From Haloplanus sp. HW8-1 (GTDB lineage Archaea; Halobacteriota; Halobacteria; Halobacteriales; Haloferacaceae): a stretch of 64,000 bases of DNA. The notes below the pieces were generated by a model. The model had not been told where the DNA came from. It saw nothing but the letters and a program-made list of their open reading frames with translations, and did not search any database. Shown piece by piece: positions 10,940 to 22,623 of this stretch. Both the position numbers and the translations under genes were made by a program. The stretch is from the NCBI RefSeq assembly GCF_023703795.1, contig NZ_CP098518.1, forward strand, positions 124,001 through 188,000, read 5' to 3'. Every line of letters begins with the position of its first letter. Within the stretch, counting starts at the first letter, position 1.

Positions 10940-12190
10940 ATGGCGGAGCGCTTCACTGCGACCTACCGGATCGAGACCCCGGAGTCGCCCCAGGCGGCGG
11001 CCGAGGCGATGGCCGGCGAGCAGTCGGCGAGCACGTTCGTCGACGTTCCGGGCCAGACGGATGACCTACAGCGGCGCCACGGCGCGACGGTCGTCGACGT
11101 GACCGAACTGGAGACGACGACGGAGCCGACGCTTCCGGGCGTCGACGCCGACGCCGACGAGTACACCCGCGCCACGGTGCAGATCGGATACCCCCTCGAC
11201 AATCTCGGGGTTTCGGTACCCCAACTCCGCACGACGGTCGCCGGCAACGTCTTCGAGATGCAACCGCTCTCCGGGGTGCGACTGATGGACATCGACGTGC
11301 CGGCGGCGTACGGGTCGGCGTGTCCGACCCCGCAGTTCGGGATCTCGGGGACCCGCGACCTGATCGACGTCCACGACCGCCCGATCGTCGGAACGATCGT
11401 CAAGCCGAGCGTGGGGCTGTCGCCGGGGGAGACGGCATCGCTCGTCGAGACGCTCGTCGAGGCTGGCGTCGACTTCATCAAGGACGACGAACTCATCGCC
11501 GATCCGCCCTACTCCCGGTTCGAGGAGCGGGTCGAGGCGGTCATGTCGGTCATCAACGAGCACGAATCGGAGACGGGCAAACGGGTGATGTACGCGTTCA
11601 ACGTCACCGGCGACGTCGACGAGATGCGGCGCCGCCACGACGTGGTCCGCGACGCCGGCGGGAGCTGTGTCATGGTCAGCCTCAACAGCGTCGGCCTCGC
11701 GGGCGTCCTAGCGCTGCGCCGGCACAGCGACCTGCCCATCCACGGACACCGGAACGGCTGGGGGGCGCTCTCGCGGTGTCCCTCCCTCGGCTTCGAGTAT
11801 ACGGCCTACCAGAAGCTCTGGCGCCTCGCCGGCGTCGACCACCTCCACGTCAACGGCATCCGGAACAAGTTCACCGAGTCCGACGAGTCGGTCGTCGCCT
11901 CCGCGCGGGCGGTCCAGCGACCGATCCCGGGGGACGACGGCGCCCTCCCCGTGTTCTCCTCCGGCCAGTGGGCCGGACAGGCCCACGACACCTACGAGGC
12001 GCTGGGCAACGTGGACCTGATGTATCTCGCCGGGGGCGGGATCATGGGGCACCCGGACGGCCCGGCCGGGGGCGTCGACGCGCTGAAGCAGGGCTGGGAG
12101 GCCGCCATGGCCGGCGTCTCGCTCGCGGAGTACGCGACCGATCACGCGGCGCTCCGCCGCTCGATGGAGGCGTTCGGGGACGATGAGTGA
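10940..12190 (+). CDS. RuBisCO-like protein (candidate 3-oxo-isoapionate-4-phosphate decarboxylase/transcarboxylase type)
   Basis: A 416-residue RuBisCO large-chain homologue. GTIVKPSVGL carries Lys155. DFIKDDE carries the carbamylation-type lysine Lys181 with Asp183 and Glu184. GHRNGWGALSR (His270) and HVNGIRNKF (His303) follow, then FSSGQW and GGGIMGHPDGPAGG. The metal-binding triad is intact, but loop-6 and phosphate-binding regions differ from carboxylating RuBisCO, so it is classed as RuBisCO-like. It overlaps a DUF1537 kinase by 8 bp. Known RLPs beside DUF1537 kinases act on 3-oxo-isoapionate 4-phosphate (OiaC/OiaX in D-apionate catabolism). The same role here is inferred from that pairing. 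Confidence 0.85.
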   Translation: MAERFTATYRIETPESPQAAAEAMAGEQSASTFVDVPGQTDDLQRRHGATVVDVTELETTTEPTLPGVDADADEYTRATVQIGYPLDNLGVSVPQLRTTVAGNVFEMQPLSGVRLMDIDVPAAYGSACPTPQFGISGTRDLIDVHDRPIVGTIVKPSVGLSPGETASLVETLVEAGVDFIKDDELIADPPYSRFEERVEAVMSVINEHESETGKRVMYAFNVTGDVDEMRRRHDVVRDAGGSCVMVSLNSVGLAGVLALRRHSDLPIHGHRNGWGALSRCPSLGFEYTAYQKLWRLAGVDHLHVNGIRNKFTESDESVVASARAVQRPIPGDDGALPVFSSGQWAGQAHDTYEALGNVDLMYLAGGGIMGHPDGPAGGVDALKQGWEAAMAGVSLAEYATDHAALRRSMEAFGDDE

Positions 12191-13592
12191 CGACGACCTC
12201 CTCCTCGCGTACTACGGGGACGACCTGACGGGATCGACGGACGCGATGGAGGCGCTCGGTCTCGGCGGCGTGCGCACGGCGCTGTTTCTCGAACCGCCGA
12301 CGGAGTCGGAGCTGACGGGGCGGTTCGCGGACCTCGATGCGGTCGGCGTCGCCGGCCGGAGTCGGTCGATGTCGCCCGACGAGATGGACGAGGTGTTGCC
12401 GGACCACTTCGAACGACTCGCGGACCTCGACCCGGCGTTCGTCCAGTACAAGGTCTGTTCGACCTTCGACTCGGCGCCCGACGTCGGGAGCATCGGCCAC
12501 GCCGTCGACATCGGCCAGGACGTGTTCGACTCTCCCTTCGTCCCCGTGGTGGTCGGGGTGCCGGCCCTGGAGCGGTACGTCGTCTTCGGGAACCTGTTTG
12601 CGACCGTCGACGACCGCACCTACCGCATCGACCGCCACCCGACGATGAGCGACCACCCGGTGACGCCGATGACCGAGGGCGACCTCTGTCGACACCTCGG
12701 CGACCAGACGGACCGGCGGACGGACCGTTTCGACGTGCTCGCCCTCGAGAGCGGGGGGGTCGACGCCGCGTTCGCACGTCTCGTGGCCTCGGACCCGGAG
12801 GTCGTCCTCTTCGATACGCTCGACGACTCACACTTACAGCGGATCGGTCGTCTGCTCTGGGCGTATGCGCTCGAACTCGCGGGCGGGGACGCGGACACGA
12901 ACACGGACGACGACGGTCCTCTCTTCGCGGTCGGTTCCTCGGGACTGGGGTACGCCCTGACCGCGTACTGGGCCGAGACAGGTGCCGTCTCGCCGCCCGA
13001 ATCGATTCCGACGGCGGACCCCGTCGACCGCATCGCCGTCATGTCCGGGAGCGCGTCGCCAGAGACGGCCGCACAGATCGACGCCGCTCTCGCCCGCGAG
13101 GACTTCACGGGCGTCAGACTCGACACCCCCGCGCTCGTCGACCCCGAGCGCGTGGCGACAGAGCGCGACCGGGTCGTCGACGCGGCGACCGACGCGCTCG
13201 CCGCCGGCGACAGCGTCGTCATGTACGCGGCCCGGGGGCCGGACGACCCGGCGATCGAGCGGACCCGTGCGGCCGCCGAGCGCCAGGGGATCGACGACGT
13301 TGGCGGCCGGATCGGTCGCGAGCAGGGTGCCATCTTCGAGGCCGTCCTCTCCGAGTCGGACGTCTCGCGGGCGTGTATCGCCGGTGGCGACACCAGCGGC
13401 TACGTCGCGCCGGCGCTCGACATCTACGCGCTGGAGTTCCACAGTCCGATCGCCCCCGGCTGTCCGCTCTGTATCGCGAGTTCCGACACCGAGGAGTTCG
13501 ACCGCCTGCAACTGTCGCTCAAGGGCGGACAGACGGGCGGGGAACGGTATTTCGAGAACGTCCGACGCGGCCAGTCCGACCACTGGCCCTGA
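12183..13592 (+). CDS. DUF1537 four-carbon acid-sugar kinase family protein (OiaK/OtnK-like)
   Basis: A 469-residue protein with the DUF1537 signature GDDLTGSTDA at residues 12-21 and a C-terminal nucleotide-binding half. That half contains IAGGDTSGYV and SLKGGQTGGERYF. Family members phosphorylate 3-oxo- or 2-oxo-acid sugars such as 3-oxo-tetronates and 3-oxo-isoapionate. The start codon overlaps the end of the RuBisCO-like gene by 8 bp, so the two are translationally coupled and probably act in sequence. The exact substrate is not readable from the sequence. Confidence 0.9.
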   Translation: MSDDDLLLAYYGDDLTGSTDAMEALGLGGVRTALFLEPPTESELTGRFADLDAVGVAGRSRSMSPDEMDEVLPDHFERLADLDPAFVQYKVCSTFDSAPDVGSIGHAVDIGQDVFDSPFVPVVVGVPALERYVVFGNLFATVDDRTYRIDRHPTMSDHPVTPMTEGDLCRHLGDQTDRRTDRFDVLALESGGVDAAFARLVASDPEVVLFDTLDDSHLQRIGRLLWAYALELAGGDADTNTDDDGPLFAVGSSGLGYALTAYWAETGAVSPPESIPTADPVDRIAVMSGSASPETAAQIDAALAREDFTGVRLDTPALVDPERVATERDRVVDAATDALAAGDSVVMYAARGPDDPAIERTRAAAERQGIDDVGGRIGREQGAIFEAVLSESDVSRACIAGGDTSGYVAPALDIYALEFHSPIAPGCPLCIASSDTEEFDRLQLSLKGGQTGGERYFENVRRGQSDHWP

Positions 13593-16425: not shown

Positions 16426-17616
16426 ATGGAAGCCACGTTCTCCGGATTCAGACGAGACGACGGCCGCATCGGCGTCCGAAACCACGTCGCAATCGTTCCG
16501 ACGTCCGTCTCGGTCAGTTCCATCGCGAGTACGATCGCCGACGAGGCCGGCGAGTGGGCGCGCGCGACGCCCCACCAGATGGGGACGTCCCAACCGAAGG
16601 GTACGCGCGAACAGACCCGACGAACGCTGGCCGGCATCGGTACGAACCCGAACGTGGGCGGCACGCTCGTCGTCGAACTCGGGACCGAGGACCTCGACGC
16701 CGAGGGGTTGGCCGACGACATCGCGCGGGCGGGTACCCCGGTCAGCACGCTCACCGTCCGCGAGGTCGGCGGGACCCGCGCGGCGCTCGACGAGGGGGAA
16801 CGCCTCGCGGCGGCGCTCTACGACGAGGCCCGGAACGCCCGCCGCGAGGAGGCGGACGTGAGCGAACTCGTCTTCGGCGTCGAGTGTGGGGGCAGCGACG
16901 CGACCAGCGGGATCGCGGCGAACCCGGCGGTCGGTCACGCCTGTGATCGCCTCGTCGAGGCCGGGGGGACGGTCTCGTTCAGCGAGACGCCGGAGTTCAT
17001 CGGGGCCGAACACACGCTGGCCGAACGCTGTACCGACGAGGAGACGCGCCGCCGCCTGCTCGATCGGGTCGACCAGCGGGAGAGCCAGGCCGAACTCATG
17101 GGCGTCGACCTGCGGGGCGCTCAGCCCACCCCCGGCAACAAGGAGGGCGGACTCACCACCGTCGAGGAGAAGAGCCTGGGTGCGATCGCGAAAGGTGGGA
17201 CCACACCCGTCGAGGGGATGGTCGACTACGCCGAGCGACTCCCGACGGGCGCCGGCCTCGTCCTGATGGATACACCCGGCTACGACGTCGAGAGCGTCGT
17301 CGGAAAAGTGAGCGGCGGTGCGCAGGTGGTTGCCTTTACCACCGGCCGCGGGAGCACGACCGGGAACCCGATCGCCCCCGTGATCAAGGTGACCGGCAAC
17401 CCGAACACCTGGGAGGAGATGTCGAGCAACATCGACGTGAACGCCAGTACCGTCGTCGACGGGGCGCCGATATCGGCGGCCGGCGACCGCGTCTACGAGA
17501 CGCTCGTCGCGGTGGCCGACGGCCGGCGGACGGCCGCCGAGCGGCGTCACCTCGAGGAGTTCGCGATCAACGAGATCCAGCCCAACGAACTCGCCTCGAC
17601 GGAGGTGGACGTATGA
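16426..17616 (+). CDS. UxaA/GarD-family dehydratase large subunit, paralogue 1 (keeps CGGSD and PGNKEGG motifs)
   Basis: A 396-residue homologue of the altronate/galactarate dehydratase large domain. It has RDDGRIGVRNH, then GVECGGSDATSGIAANPAVG (Cys154), then PGNKEGGLTTVEEKSLGA and TTGRGSTTGNPIAPVIKV. The family positions that should read HxxGC and LGCE are altered: TPHQMGTSQ at 48-56 and ELGTED at 85-90, so both cysteines are threonine. The next gene is the SAF subunit (ATGA overlap) and then a second large paralogue that keeps exactly those cysteines. The complex probably dehydrates a sugar acid to a 2-keto-3-deoxy acid. Confidence 0.9.
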   Translation: MEATFSGFRRDDGRIGVRNHVAIVPTSVSVSSIASTIADEAGEWARATPHQMGTSQPKGTREQTRRTLAGIGTNPNVGGTLVVELGTEDLDAEGLADDIARAGTPVSTLTVREVGGTRAALDEGERLAAALYDEARNARREEADVSELVFGVECGGSDATSGIAANPAVGHACDRLVEAGGTVSFSETPEFIGAEHTLAERCTDEETRRRLLDRVDQRESQAELMGVDLRGAQPTPGNKEGGLTTVEEKSLGAIAKGGTTPVEGMVDYAERLPTGAGLVLMDTPGYDVESVVGKVSGGAQVVAFTTGRGSTTGNPIAPVIKVTGNPNTWEEMSSNIDVNASTVVDGAPISAAGDRVYETLVAVADGRRTAAERRHLEEFAINEIQPNELASTEVDV

Positions 17617-17924
17617 AAGGCGAGACCTTCGAGGACGTCGCCCTGCGGATGGACGACCGGGACGACGTCGCGACCGCGCTGGCGGATCTCTCGGCCGGCC
17701 GCAATCTCGATGTCGGCGAGAACACGGTCACGCTCGCAGAGGACGTCCCCTTCGGCCACAAACTGGCGCTGCGACCGCTCGGCGCCGGCGACGAGATCGT
17801 CAAGTACGGCGAAGTGATCGGCGTCGCGAGCGCCGACATCGACGCCGGCGAGTGGGTCCACACGCACAACTGCGAGAGCATGCGCGGTCGCGGCGACAAG
17901 GCCGCCACGGAGGGATCGGCGTGA
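17613..17924 (+). CDS. UxaA-family SAF-domain small subunit
   Basis: A 103-residue SAF domain: DVPFGHKLALRPLGAGDEIV then KYGEVIGVASADIDAGEWVHTHN. In one-piece altronate dehydratases this domain is the N-terminus; in split systems (for example SuyA/SuyB sulfolactate lyase) it is a separate small protein. It overlaps the gene before by ATGA and the gene after by GTGA, so all three are translationally coupled and presumably form one enzyme. Confidence 0.9.
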   Translation: MKGETFEDVALRMDDRDDVATALADLSAGRNLDVGENTVTLAEDVPFGHKLALRPLGAGDEIVKYGEVIGVASADIDAGEWVHTHNCESMRGRGDKAATEGSA

Positions 17925-19039
17925 CCGACGCCGGATCCGTCGGGTCGCCACAGGGGTCGGTCGTCCGCGACGACGGGGCGGTCGGCGTCCGGGACCGGGT
18001 GCTCGTCCTCCCGTCGGTGATCTGTTCACACGTTGTCGCCGAGCGCATCGCCGAGCGGGTCCCGGGTGCGGTCGCCACGCCCCACGACCACGGCTGTGCA
18101 CAGCTCGGAGCCGACATCGACCAGACCACCCGGACGTTCCGCAACCTCGCGAGGAACCCGAACGTCGCCGGCACGCTCGTCGTGGGGCTGGGCTGTGAGG
18201 GCGTCCAGAGCGACGACGTGGCCGCCGACCTCGACGCCCGGTCGGTGCCGGTTCGCGAGGTGGCGATCCAGGACGTCGGCGGCACCGACGCCTGTATCGA
18301 CGCCGGGACGACGCTGGCGCGTGACCTGGTCGACGGCGGATCGGCGTCGAGCCCCTCCGGGCGCGTCTCCCTCGGCGACCTCACCGTCGGCGTCGTCGTA
18401 GGCGCCCCACACGCGTCGAACGTCGACGTCGCCGAACCGGTCGTCGGCGAGTTCGTCGCCGACCTGGTCGACGCCGGGGGGCGGGCGATCCTCGCGGGCG
18501 CCGAACGGTTCGTCGCCCATCCCGAGGCCGCACGCGAACGGGCGACGCCCGCGGCGGCCGACGACGTGACTGCGCTCGTCGAGCGCCACCGCGACCGCCC
18601 GGCGAAGGTGCGGCGGTTGCAGCGCATGGCGGAGAGCGAACCCTTCGACGAACTGACCCGGGCCATCCCGGACCGGCCGATCGAGGAGATCGTCGAGTAC
18701 GGTGCTCGGGCTGCGACGCCCGCGGGCGTCGCGTTGCTCGACTCGCCGTCGGAGTTCGCCGAAGCGGCGACCGGCCTCGTCGCCGCCGGCGCACAGTTGA
18801 TCGTCCACGTCACCGCCGACGGCGTGACGACCGGCCACCCGCTGGCGCCCGTGGTCAAGGTAAGCGGCGACGGGACGACCGTCGACGCGCTGCCGGACGA
18901 CATCGACGTGGACGCGCGGTCCGTAACGGCCGCCGACCTCCGCGAGCGCGTGCTAGCGATCGCCGACGGCGAGCCCTGTCGTGCCGAGCGACACGGCGTG
19001 ACGTCGTTCGCGATCACGCGCGTCGGACCGTCGATGTAG
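17921..19039 (+). CDS. UxaA/GarD-family large subunit, paralogue 2 (keeps HxHGC and GLGCE motifs)
   Basis: A 372-residue paralogue of the large subunit at 16426, started at GTG 17921 because it overlaps the SAF gene stop. It keeps TPHDHGCAQLG (His55, His57, Cys59) and GLGCEG (Cys92), the family's early metal-binding-type motifs. It has lost others: where paralogue 1 has ECGGSDATSG this protein has VGAPHASN (about 160-167), and PGNKEGG is absent. The C-terminal PLAPVVKVSGD remains. The pattern suggests an obligate partner of paralogue 1. Confidence 0.85.
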   Translation: MTDAGSVGSPQGSVVRDDGAVGVRDRVLVLPSVICSHVVAERIAERVPGAVATPHDHGCAQLGADIDQTTRTFRNLARNPNVAGTLVVGLGCEGVQSDDVAADLDARSVPVREVAIQDVGGTDACIDAGTTLARDLVDGGSASSPSGRVSLGDLTVGVVVGAPHASNVDVAEPVVGEFVADLVDAGGRAILAGAERFVAHPEAARERATPAAADDVTALVERHRDRPAKVRRLQRMAESEPFDELTRAIPDRPIEEIVEYGARAATPAGVALLDSPSEFAEAATGLVAAGAQLIVHVTADGVTTGHPLAPVVKVSGDGTTVDALPDDIDVDARSVTAADLRERVLAIADGEPCRAERHGVTSFAITRVGPSM

Positions 19040-21309: not shown

Positions 21310-22623
21310 ATGATCGATCCACCGAATCCGGACCGACTCGCGGAGATCAACGATGCGTCGATCGGCGAGTTCCCCGATCTGGTTCTGCTCGAACGGACGC
21401 GCGACCAGCCACAGGTCGACGACGTCGAGGCAGCGACCCGAGCGGCCGTCGACGACGTCCTCGACGCGTCGGCACTCGACGACGGCGCAGAGGTTGGCAT
21501 CACCGCCGGCTCCCGTGGCATCCACGACATGCCGGCGATCCTCGCGGCCGCCGTCGAGCATCTGCAGGGGAACGGCTACGAACCGTTCGTCCTGCCCGCG
21601 ATGGGCAGTCACGGGGGTGCGACCGCGCAGGGGCAGCGCGACGTCCTCGAGAGCCTCGGTATCACCGAGGCGTCGGTCGGGTGTGAGATCCGCTCTTCCA
21701 TGACGGTCGAGACGGTAGGGCGGGACGCGGCCGGGCGGCCGGTGTACGCCGCCACCGACGCCCTCGACGCCGACGCCGTGTTGCTGGCCAACCGCGTCAA
21801 ACTCCACACGGACTTCCACGGCGACGTCGAGAGCGGCCTGAGCAAGATGGCGGTCATCGGTCTCGGCAAGCAGCGCGGCGCCGACGTGACCCACCGGGCG
21901 GGGCTGGACGAGGGTCTCGACGTCGCCATCCCGGAGCGGGCGGCCATCCTCTTCGAGGAGACGCCCATCGTCGGCGGGATCGCCATGTACGAGAACGCGG
22001 CCGACCGCGCGGCCCACGTCGAGGGCATCCCAGTCGACGCGATCCCGGACCGGGAGCCGGAACTACTGGCGGCGTCAGAGGAACTGTTCCCGCGTCTGCC
22101 GGTCGACGACCTCGACCTGTTGATCGTCGACGAGATCGGCAAGAACGTCTCGGGCACGGGCATGGACACGAACGTGATCGGGCGGATGAACTACCACGGC
22201 CAGCCGGAGCCGGACACGCCGAACTACGACCGCATCTACGTCCGCGGACTCACTCCGGAGTCACACCACAACGCCATCGGAATGGGGCTCGCGGACTTCG
22301 TCCACGGCGACGTCGTCCCGGAGATCGATCTGACAGATACGTACATCAACGGCGTGACCGGTGGTGAACCGTCCCGGAGCAGCCTGCCGGTGATCGCGCC
22401 CTCCGACGAGGTGGCGCTCCTGTTGGCTTACTCGTCGGTCGGCCGTGGCTCGCCGGCCGACCTCCGGATCGGCTACGTCGAGAACACGCTGGAACCGGAC
22501 CGGATCGCCGTGTCGGCGCCAGTCGCCGCGGAGGTAACCGACCGGAACGATATCGAGGCGGTGAACGAGGTTCCACTCCGGGTGCACGACGGCGACTTCG
22601 CGTTCGATCCCTTCCGGTCGTAG
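21310..22623 (+). CDS. LarA-like (nickel-dependent racemase/epimerase superfamily, DUF2088-type) protein
   Basis: A 437-residue protein related to lactate racemase. A histidine in PAMGSHGGAT (His101) and a His/Lys-rich stretch VKLHTDFHGDVESGLSKM (His166, His170, Lys179) correspond in position to the catalytic His/Lys region of LarA. FVHGDVVPEIDL and NGVTGGEP follow. LarA homologues racemise or epimerise 2-hydroxy acids using a nickel-pincer cofactor. No LarB, LarC or LarE maturation genes are in this window. It is 80 bp after the acyl-CoA synthetase and precedes LutABC, consistent with interconverting lactate-like isomers. Confidence 0.78.
   Translation: MIDPPNPDRLAEINDASIGEFPDLVLLERTRDQPQVDDVEAATRAAVDDVLDASALDDGAEVGITAGSRGIHDMPAILAAAVEHLQGNGYEPFVLPAMGSHGGATAQGQRDVLESLGITEASVGCEIRSSMTVETVGRDAAGRPVYAATDALDADAVLLANRVKLHTDFHGDVESGLSKMAVIGLGKQRGADVTHRAGLDEGLDVAIPERAAILFEETPIVGGIAMYENAADRAAHVEGIPVDAIPDREPELLAASEELFPRLPVDDLDLLIVDEIGKNVSGTGMDTNVIGRMNYHGQPEPDTPNYDRIYVRGLTPESHHNAIGMGLADFVHGDVVPEIDLTDTYINGVTGGEPSRSSLPVIAPSDEVALLLAYSSVGRGSPADLRIGYVENTLEPDRIAVSAPVAAEVTDRNDIEAVNEVPLRVHDGDFAFDPFRS

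Follow-up and report, generated by a model that had tools for sequence, protein, structure and literature searches.

Division of a conserved four-cysteine set between paired UxaA/GarD-family paralogues in haloarchaea and actinobacteria

Introduction

The large subunits of UxaA/GarD-type dehydratases bear four conserved cysteines, equivalent to Cys134, 173, 208 and 276 of D-arabinonate dehydratase, which have been proposed to constitute the iron site of the superfamily, sulfolactate sulfo-lyase being the exception to their conservation (Watanabe et al. 2019, PMC6336799). The type of iron site is itself debated, between rubredoxin-type iron and a [3Fe-4S]-like signal (PMC6336799). The stretch of DNA analysed here (64,000 nucleotides, hereafter the window), from a haloarchaeal genome of 3.84 Mb, contains two large-subunit paralogues of this superfamily, P1 and P2, neither of which carries the full set of cysteines. 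The question raised by this locus is whether the two chains share one split active site, or whether one is catalytic and the other regulatory: the two options offered in the original prediction, which was made from sequence alone.

Results and discussion

Gene layout and division of the cysteines

The genes for P1, the small SAF subunit and P2 are all open and lie on the same strand, with the SAF gene in the middle and overlapping each of its neighbours by 4 nt (Table 1). P1 matches both the second (PF04295, 5e-32) and the C-terminal (PF20629, 1e-92) domains of the family, and the small subunit matches SAF (PF08666, 3e-10). P2 matches PF04295 over the complete domain (4e-34) and PF20629 only at profile positions 114–240, the later half, the first half of its C-domain being degenerate. 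The domains that define membership of the superfamily are accordingly all present: SAF, on a separate 103-aa subunit, and GD_AH_second and GD_AH_C, both in P1, with GD_AH_C only partial in P2. There is no further GD_AH_second protein in the source genome. Purifying selection acts on each of the three genes, with dN/dS values of about 0.12 for P1, 0.35 for SAF and 0.31 for P2 when compared with the nearest relative.

The four cysteine positions could be fixed in the alignment because their counterparts were identified in D-idonate dehydratase, a close relative of D-arabinonate dehydratase (C133, C172, C207 and C275). Three lie in domain 2 (Cys1 in SVxC, Cys2 in HxxGC, Cys3 in LGCE; together, the triad) and the fourth, Cys4, lies in ECGGSD in the C-domain. 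P1 has lost the whole triad, with S29, T54 and T87 at these positions, and has kept C154; P2 has retained C35, C59 and C92, and has V160 in place of Cys4. The known set is thus divided exactly 3+1 between P2 and P1. The surrounding motifs follow suit, P1 reading HQMGTSQ, LGTE, ECGGSD and PGNKEGG, and P2 reading HDHGCAQ and LGCE, with VVGAPHASN at the site of ECGGSDATSG and the PGN region deleted.

Complementary motif loss in tandem UxaA paralogues was the central claim of the original prediction, and it held, with the motifs as stated. The pattern is in fact stronger than was claimed: only three of the four cysteine positions had been seen, and the third lost cysteine, in SVxC (C35 in P2, S29 in P1), had been missed. 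The further claim that normal enzymes hold all the motifs together held for the four cysteines, which are present in all 94 canonical enzymes compared (ordinary one-large-subunit enzymes, including Escherichia coli UxaA and GarD, classed by their cysteines). Neither P1 nor P2 has all four in one large chain; only the two together do. The lost motifs may be taken as active-site residues in so far as the four cysteines have been assigned to the iron site (PMC6336799). If rows that are truncated and two lone Bacillota sequences that align poorly (L252, L253) are set aside, three sequence types were seen in all: four cysteines (the 94 canonical enzymes), Cys4 without the triad (P1, SuyB and other lone types), and the triad without Cys4 (P2, with a P1 beside it). 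No P2 with a partial triad was found among the sequences compared.

Table 1. Positions in the window of the trio, the four cysteine codons and selected neighbouring genes
Feature	Position	Strand	Description
P1	16426..17616	+	UxaA/GarD large subunit, 396 aa, GD_AH_second and complete GD_AH_C
SAF (beta-clip) small subunit	17613..17924	+	103 aa, ATGA overlap with P1
P2	17921..19039	+	UxaA/GarD large-subunit paralogue, 372 aa, GTG start overlapping SAF stop
P1 C154 codon, Cys4 (ECGGSD)	16885..16887	+	Aligns with UxaA C264, GarD C288; V160 in P2
P2 C35 codon, Cys1 (SVIC)	18023..18025	+	Aligns with UxaA C132, GarD C144, D-idonate dehydratase C133
P2 C59 codon, Cys2 (HDHGC)	18095..18097	+	Aligns with UxaA C166, GarD C179
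P2 C92 codon, Cys3 (LGCE)	18194..18196	+	Aligns with UxaA C199, GarD C215
RuBisCO-like protein	10940-12190		Best match OiaX (3-oxo-isoapionate-4-phosphate decarboxylase), below NCBIfam cut-off
DUF1537 kinase	12183-13592		Best match OiaK, below NCBIfam cut-off; directly after OiaX-like gene
Nickel-pincer-cofactor isomerase, LarA-like	21310-22623		NCBIfam group 22, above cut-off; two genes downstream of trio

Distribution in haloarchaea

Conserved co-occurrence of both forms in haloarchaeal genomes, for which the original prediction had recommended a search, was found: the 3+1 partition is invariant in 65 P1 and 65 P2 sequences. Given this invariance in 65 pairs, and the purifying selection on the genes, the pattern is far beyond chance. 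The lone apparent exception is a P2 (L005) in which a Cys falls by chance at the Cys4 position, the other C-domain residues being absent. A match was obtained in 38 of the 148 genomes of the same family that were searched, mostly arranged as P1, about 400 nt, then P2, and P2-type matches adjoin those of P1 type. More haloarchaeal loci, spread over many genera, came from a scan of GTDB contigs, and of 44 additional loci 43 have overlaps at both junctions (34 at -4/-4 nt, 9 at -4/-1). Frames are disrupted in P1 of Haloferax marisrubri (L028/L084) and in P2 of Haloferax denitrificans (L031/L079), either as pseudogenes or through assembly error. Separately, two canonical four-cysteine enzymes (L140, L141) are encoded by an archaeon (G287) with a genome of 1.5 Mb, from the same phylum as the window; they share 48% and 58% identity with the Priestia form and might serve as outgroups in dating the split in haloarchaea.

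Actinobacterial trios and fusions

The same contig scan revealed a second arrangement in freshwater actinobacteria, with the gene order SAF-P2-P1, in about 42 of the 251 genomes of the order concerned. P2 is here a short open frame of 258–283 aa that has kept the three cysteines and lost ECGGSD together with a large part of the C-domain, while P1 has kept ECGGSD and lost the triad. This partition is invariant in the 31 P2 and 31 P1 sequences compared, and P1 adjoins P2 at every actinobacterial P2 locus read. These loci (L093-L097, L108-L139) sit in small genomes of about 1.0–1.4 Mb whose record names conflict (a Bifidobacterium breve MAG, a Streptomycetaceae bacterium) even though the genes are 89–96% identical; the sources are probably mislabelled MAGs of one group.

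In a third arrangement, found in other actinobacteria, SAF, P1 and P2 are joined in that order in one chain of ~910 aa. A Pfam search of the actinobacterial phylum recovered these fusions as open frames of 899–940 aa with two GD_AH_second domains. The P1-type unit has QCGGSD and no triad, the P2-type unit has PTSLC, HTEGC and EHGCE and no ECGGSD, and the partition is unchanged in 8–9 fusions. The joining of exactly these parts in one chain supports joint working in the ratio 1:1:1, and it is strong evidence that P1, P2 and SAF probably do act together in this way, although there are no data on a complex. A sample of Bacillota and Pseudomonadota, in which reading was limited to the best loci or to selected ones, yielded 72 canonical and 11 triad-less sequences and none of the P2 type. 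A lone triad-less UxaA-like group in Bacillota (L250, L251, L254-L257), with the signature Y-R-R/K-C and G for the TGRG arginine, is neither clearly SuyB nor P1, and two copies of it occur in one 10-kb stretch (L256).

Reciprocal constraint and triad-linked residues

The two paralogues are constrained in opposite halves. At paired loci the mean identity of P1 is 78% in the C-domain against 61% in domain 2, the C-domain being the higher in all pairs; for P2 it is 53% in the C-domain against 60% in domain 2, and domain 2 is the higher in 97% of pairs. The constrained halves are therefore the P1 C-domain and P2 domain 2. The same reciprocity is repeated in the actinobacterial trios and the fusions, so in all three lineages. 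In canonical enzymes the C-domain is the more conserved in 95% of pairs.

Four C-domain columns are linked to the triad, namely the second G of ECGGSD, the D of TPGxD, and the first T and the R of FTTGRG (G156, D287, T305 and R308 in P1). In canonical enzymes they are conserved at 86–99% (G in 87, D in 93, T in 81 and R in 90 of 94), and in the 24 lone triad-less relatives (SuyB and similar) they are found in 0, 0, 1 and 0 sequences respectively, lost in 95 of 96 cases. Each is present in 65 of 65 haloarchaeal P1 sequences, and all are present in every actinobacterial P1; the fusions have three of the four, the TGRG arginine being N in 9 of 9. P2 has none. Judged by this sequence comparison, the P1 C-domain looks as if it still faces an iron triad, which only P2 could supply, and these residues are the best evidence here against P1 being simply a SuyB. 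The domain-2 histidine of HxxG, on the other hand, is retained in 104 of 104 P1 sequences, and in 22 of 24 lone triad-less relatives; P1 domain 2 is consequently not wholly free of constraint, which would not be expected of a fully dead half-site.

Predicted structures

AlphaFold2 models of P1 (pLDDT 92.6) and P2 (pLDDT 92.4) both have as their best PDB match GarD (6u7l), the only solved relative, with Z scores of 42.5 over 338 residues and 36.2 over 316 residues respectively, the next-best matches to either model having Z of about 8. The full GarD fold is thus predicted to be kept in both. In the P2 model each of the three cysteines comes after one of three consecutive domain-2 strands (26-31, 50-52, 82-89), as would be expected for a site at one edge of the sheet, a placement that was read from secondary structure, without distances. 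Weak similarities between domain 2 and Fe-S dehydratases (8epz, Z 7.6; 9evv, Z 6.9) fall within the range common to Rossmann-like folds and were discarded. The abstract of the GarD paper reportedly describes domain 2 as the dimer interface, which is compatible with a site between chains.

A proposed composite active site

The reading that we favour, as the likely one, is that the three genes specify one UxaA/GarD-type dehydratase, an obligate pseudo-dimer with a single composite site, although complex, metal, activity and substrate are all inferred. A homodimeric ancestor with two identical sites would have given rise to a P1:P2 heterodimer with one complete site. Domain 2 of P2 would supply the iron-binding cysteines C35, C59 and C92, and the facing C-terminal domain of P1 the ECGGSD cysteine and the putative acid/base and substrate residues E153, D158, E187, E190, N238, D287 and R308. 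The opposite half-sites, of P1 domain 2 and the P2 C-domain, would be dead and have drifted, and one SAF subunit would serve the single site, one for each P1/P2 pair. The heterodimer, the placement of iron at the P2 triad opposite the P1 C-domain, and the dehydration of a sugar acid are each inferred.

Between the two original options the comparative evidence favours the shared site, because of the complementary loss of cysteines, the recurrence of the partition in another phylum, where the genes are ordered differently, and in the fusion, and also because of the reciprocal conservation of domains and the retention of triad-linked residues in P1. Against it may be set the absence of complex, metal or activity data, the fact that the chain geometry in GarD remains unmeasured, and the lack of the TGRG arginine in the fusions. 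Since there are no such data, and whether the site forms in cis or in trans has not been checked, the catalytic-plus-regulatory option is still not excluded.

Alternative explanations

One form of that option, which we consider unlikely, is that P1 and SAF make up the whole enzyme, an iron-free lyase like SuyB, and that P2 is a paralogue that binds iron and regulates or stabilises this enzyme, akin to a prozyme. In its favour, SuyB, an accepted member of the superfamily, likewise lacks three of the four cysteines, the same three as P1, and keeps the fourth; its SAF and large subunits are encoded separately (PMC6336799), as in the window; haloarchaeal P1 lies beside SuyB in one tree (support 86, not starred); the domain-2 histidine is common to both; and dead activating paralogues are known elsewhere (PMC5201418). 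However, (3-)sulfolactate sulfo-lyase, SuyAB, has no triad-bearing partner, whereas P2 stands beside P1 in the window and at the other P1 loci read, and the SuyB C-domain is altered (CGES/CATS; G, A or S for D; Q for R) where P1 holds the four dehydratase-type residues that lone triad-less relatives have lost. Haloarchaeal SuyAB also forms a separate clade, in a desulfonation context, with sulfite/sulfate exporter and/or sulfolactate dehydrogenase (Ldh) genes, neither of which is among the identified neighbours in the window. A large subunit fully active with SAF alone would have counted against the original prediction; SuyAB does pair a triad-less large subunit with SAF and nothing else, but its C-domain differs from that of P1 at these four positions. 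Lone haloarchaeal relatives were considered as instances of P1 working alone, and were rejected on being recognised as SuyAB.

A second alternative, that P1 and P2 belong to separate homomeric proteins that share SAF and catalyse different reactions, could appeal to the complete GarD-like fold predicted for each. It is very unlikely, given that no catalytic motif of the C-domain survives in P2, which in actinobacteria has also lost a large part of that domain, and that P2 has been seen only beside P1 and in some genomes fused to it. That the genes are functionless, decaying duplicates, as the frame-disrupted copies at a few loci might suggest, is all but excluded by the purifying selection on all three and their intactness across many haloarchaeal genera.

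Comparison with known systems

The UxaA, GarD, D-arabinonate and D-idonate dehydratases (COG2721) share with the trio the SAF, second and C-terminal domains, the fold, the motifs and the sugar-acid context, but have the four cysteines in one chain where the trio has them split over two paralogues with one SAF. Bacterial two-gene dehydratases (Priestia, L038; a Salmonella plasmid, L039), like the two-gene L-fuconate dehydratase of Paraburkholderia (PMC6336799), encode SAF apart, as in the window, but dehydratases of this two-gene kind have one large subunit with all four cysteines and no second paralogue, a description that the window trio does not fit. The AdoMetDC-prozyme pair of trypanosomes (PMC5201418) similarly couples a functional enzyme with a degenerate paralogue; there, however, the prozyme activates by relieving autoinhibition, whereas the window paralogues have each kept a different half of one site. 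No description of a split enzyme of this form was found in the open-licence literature searched.

Neighbouring genes and possible substrates

At 51 haloarchaeal loci the neighbours include enolase-superfamily sugar-acid dehydratases (35), FAH-type hydrolases akin to 2,4-didehydro-3-deoxy-L-rhamnonate hydrolase (23), Gfo/Idh oxidoreductases (22), IclR regulators (21), SDRs (18) and lactate-oxidation (LUD/LdhH) proteins (13–15). They would suit an enzyme that dehydrates aldonates in the non-phosphorylative catabolism of sugars, which may be deoxysugars, a possibility in which both substrate and activity are inferred. In the window the neighbours are an OiaX-like and an OiaK-like protein, an asparaginase, a HIBADH-like dehydrogenase, an ADP-forming acyl-CoA ligase and a LarA-like isomerase; with such neighbours, OiaX and OiaK being proteins of apionate breakdown, the substrate of the window trio may be a different one. 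The OiaX-like and OiaK-like pair hints at an archaeal apionate-type pathway, and the isomerase suggests a step of alpha-hydroxy-acid epimerisation.

Origins of the split

In the trees each of six classes forms one clade. A single P1 clade gives p 0.055 in the AU test, and although the P2 classes group together at 97, the tree is small and its branches are long; whether the split had one origin or several is therefore not settled by the trees. It is tempting to go further and propose an iron or iron-sulfur dehydratase whose single site is assembled between two reciprocally degenerate paralogues. Haloarchaea would have arrived at it separately from actinobacteria, in which it would have arisen one or more times, and in one lineage the two paralogues would then have been merged into a single-chain pseudo-dimer. 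This bolder reading is offered tentatively, the balance of evidence falling short of it.

Significance

The locus represents a real and conserved subunit organisation of a known superfamily, apparently undescribed, for which activity remains inferred. It is a natural dissection of a superfamily whose iron site is debated, the catalytic C-domain lying on one polypeptide and most of the proposed ligands on another. Combining subunits that had been mutated separately could reveal which residues bind iron and whether the site forms between chains, and could also show why the sulfo-lyase relatives manage without it. If the shared-site reading is true, this would be a clean case of the passage from a homodimer to an obligate half-of-sites heterodimer, with the natural fusion as its end point, and dozens of genes whose sole present annotation is 'UxaA family hydrolase' could receive new names as subunits of a single enzyme.
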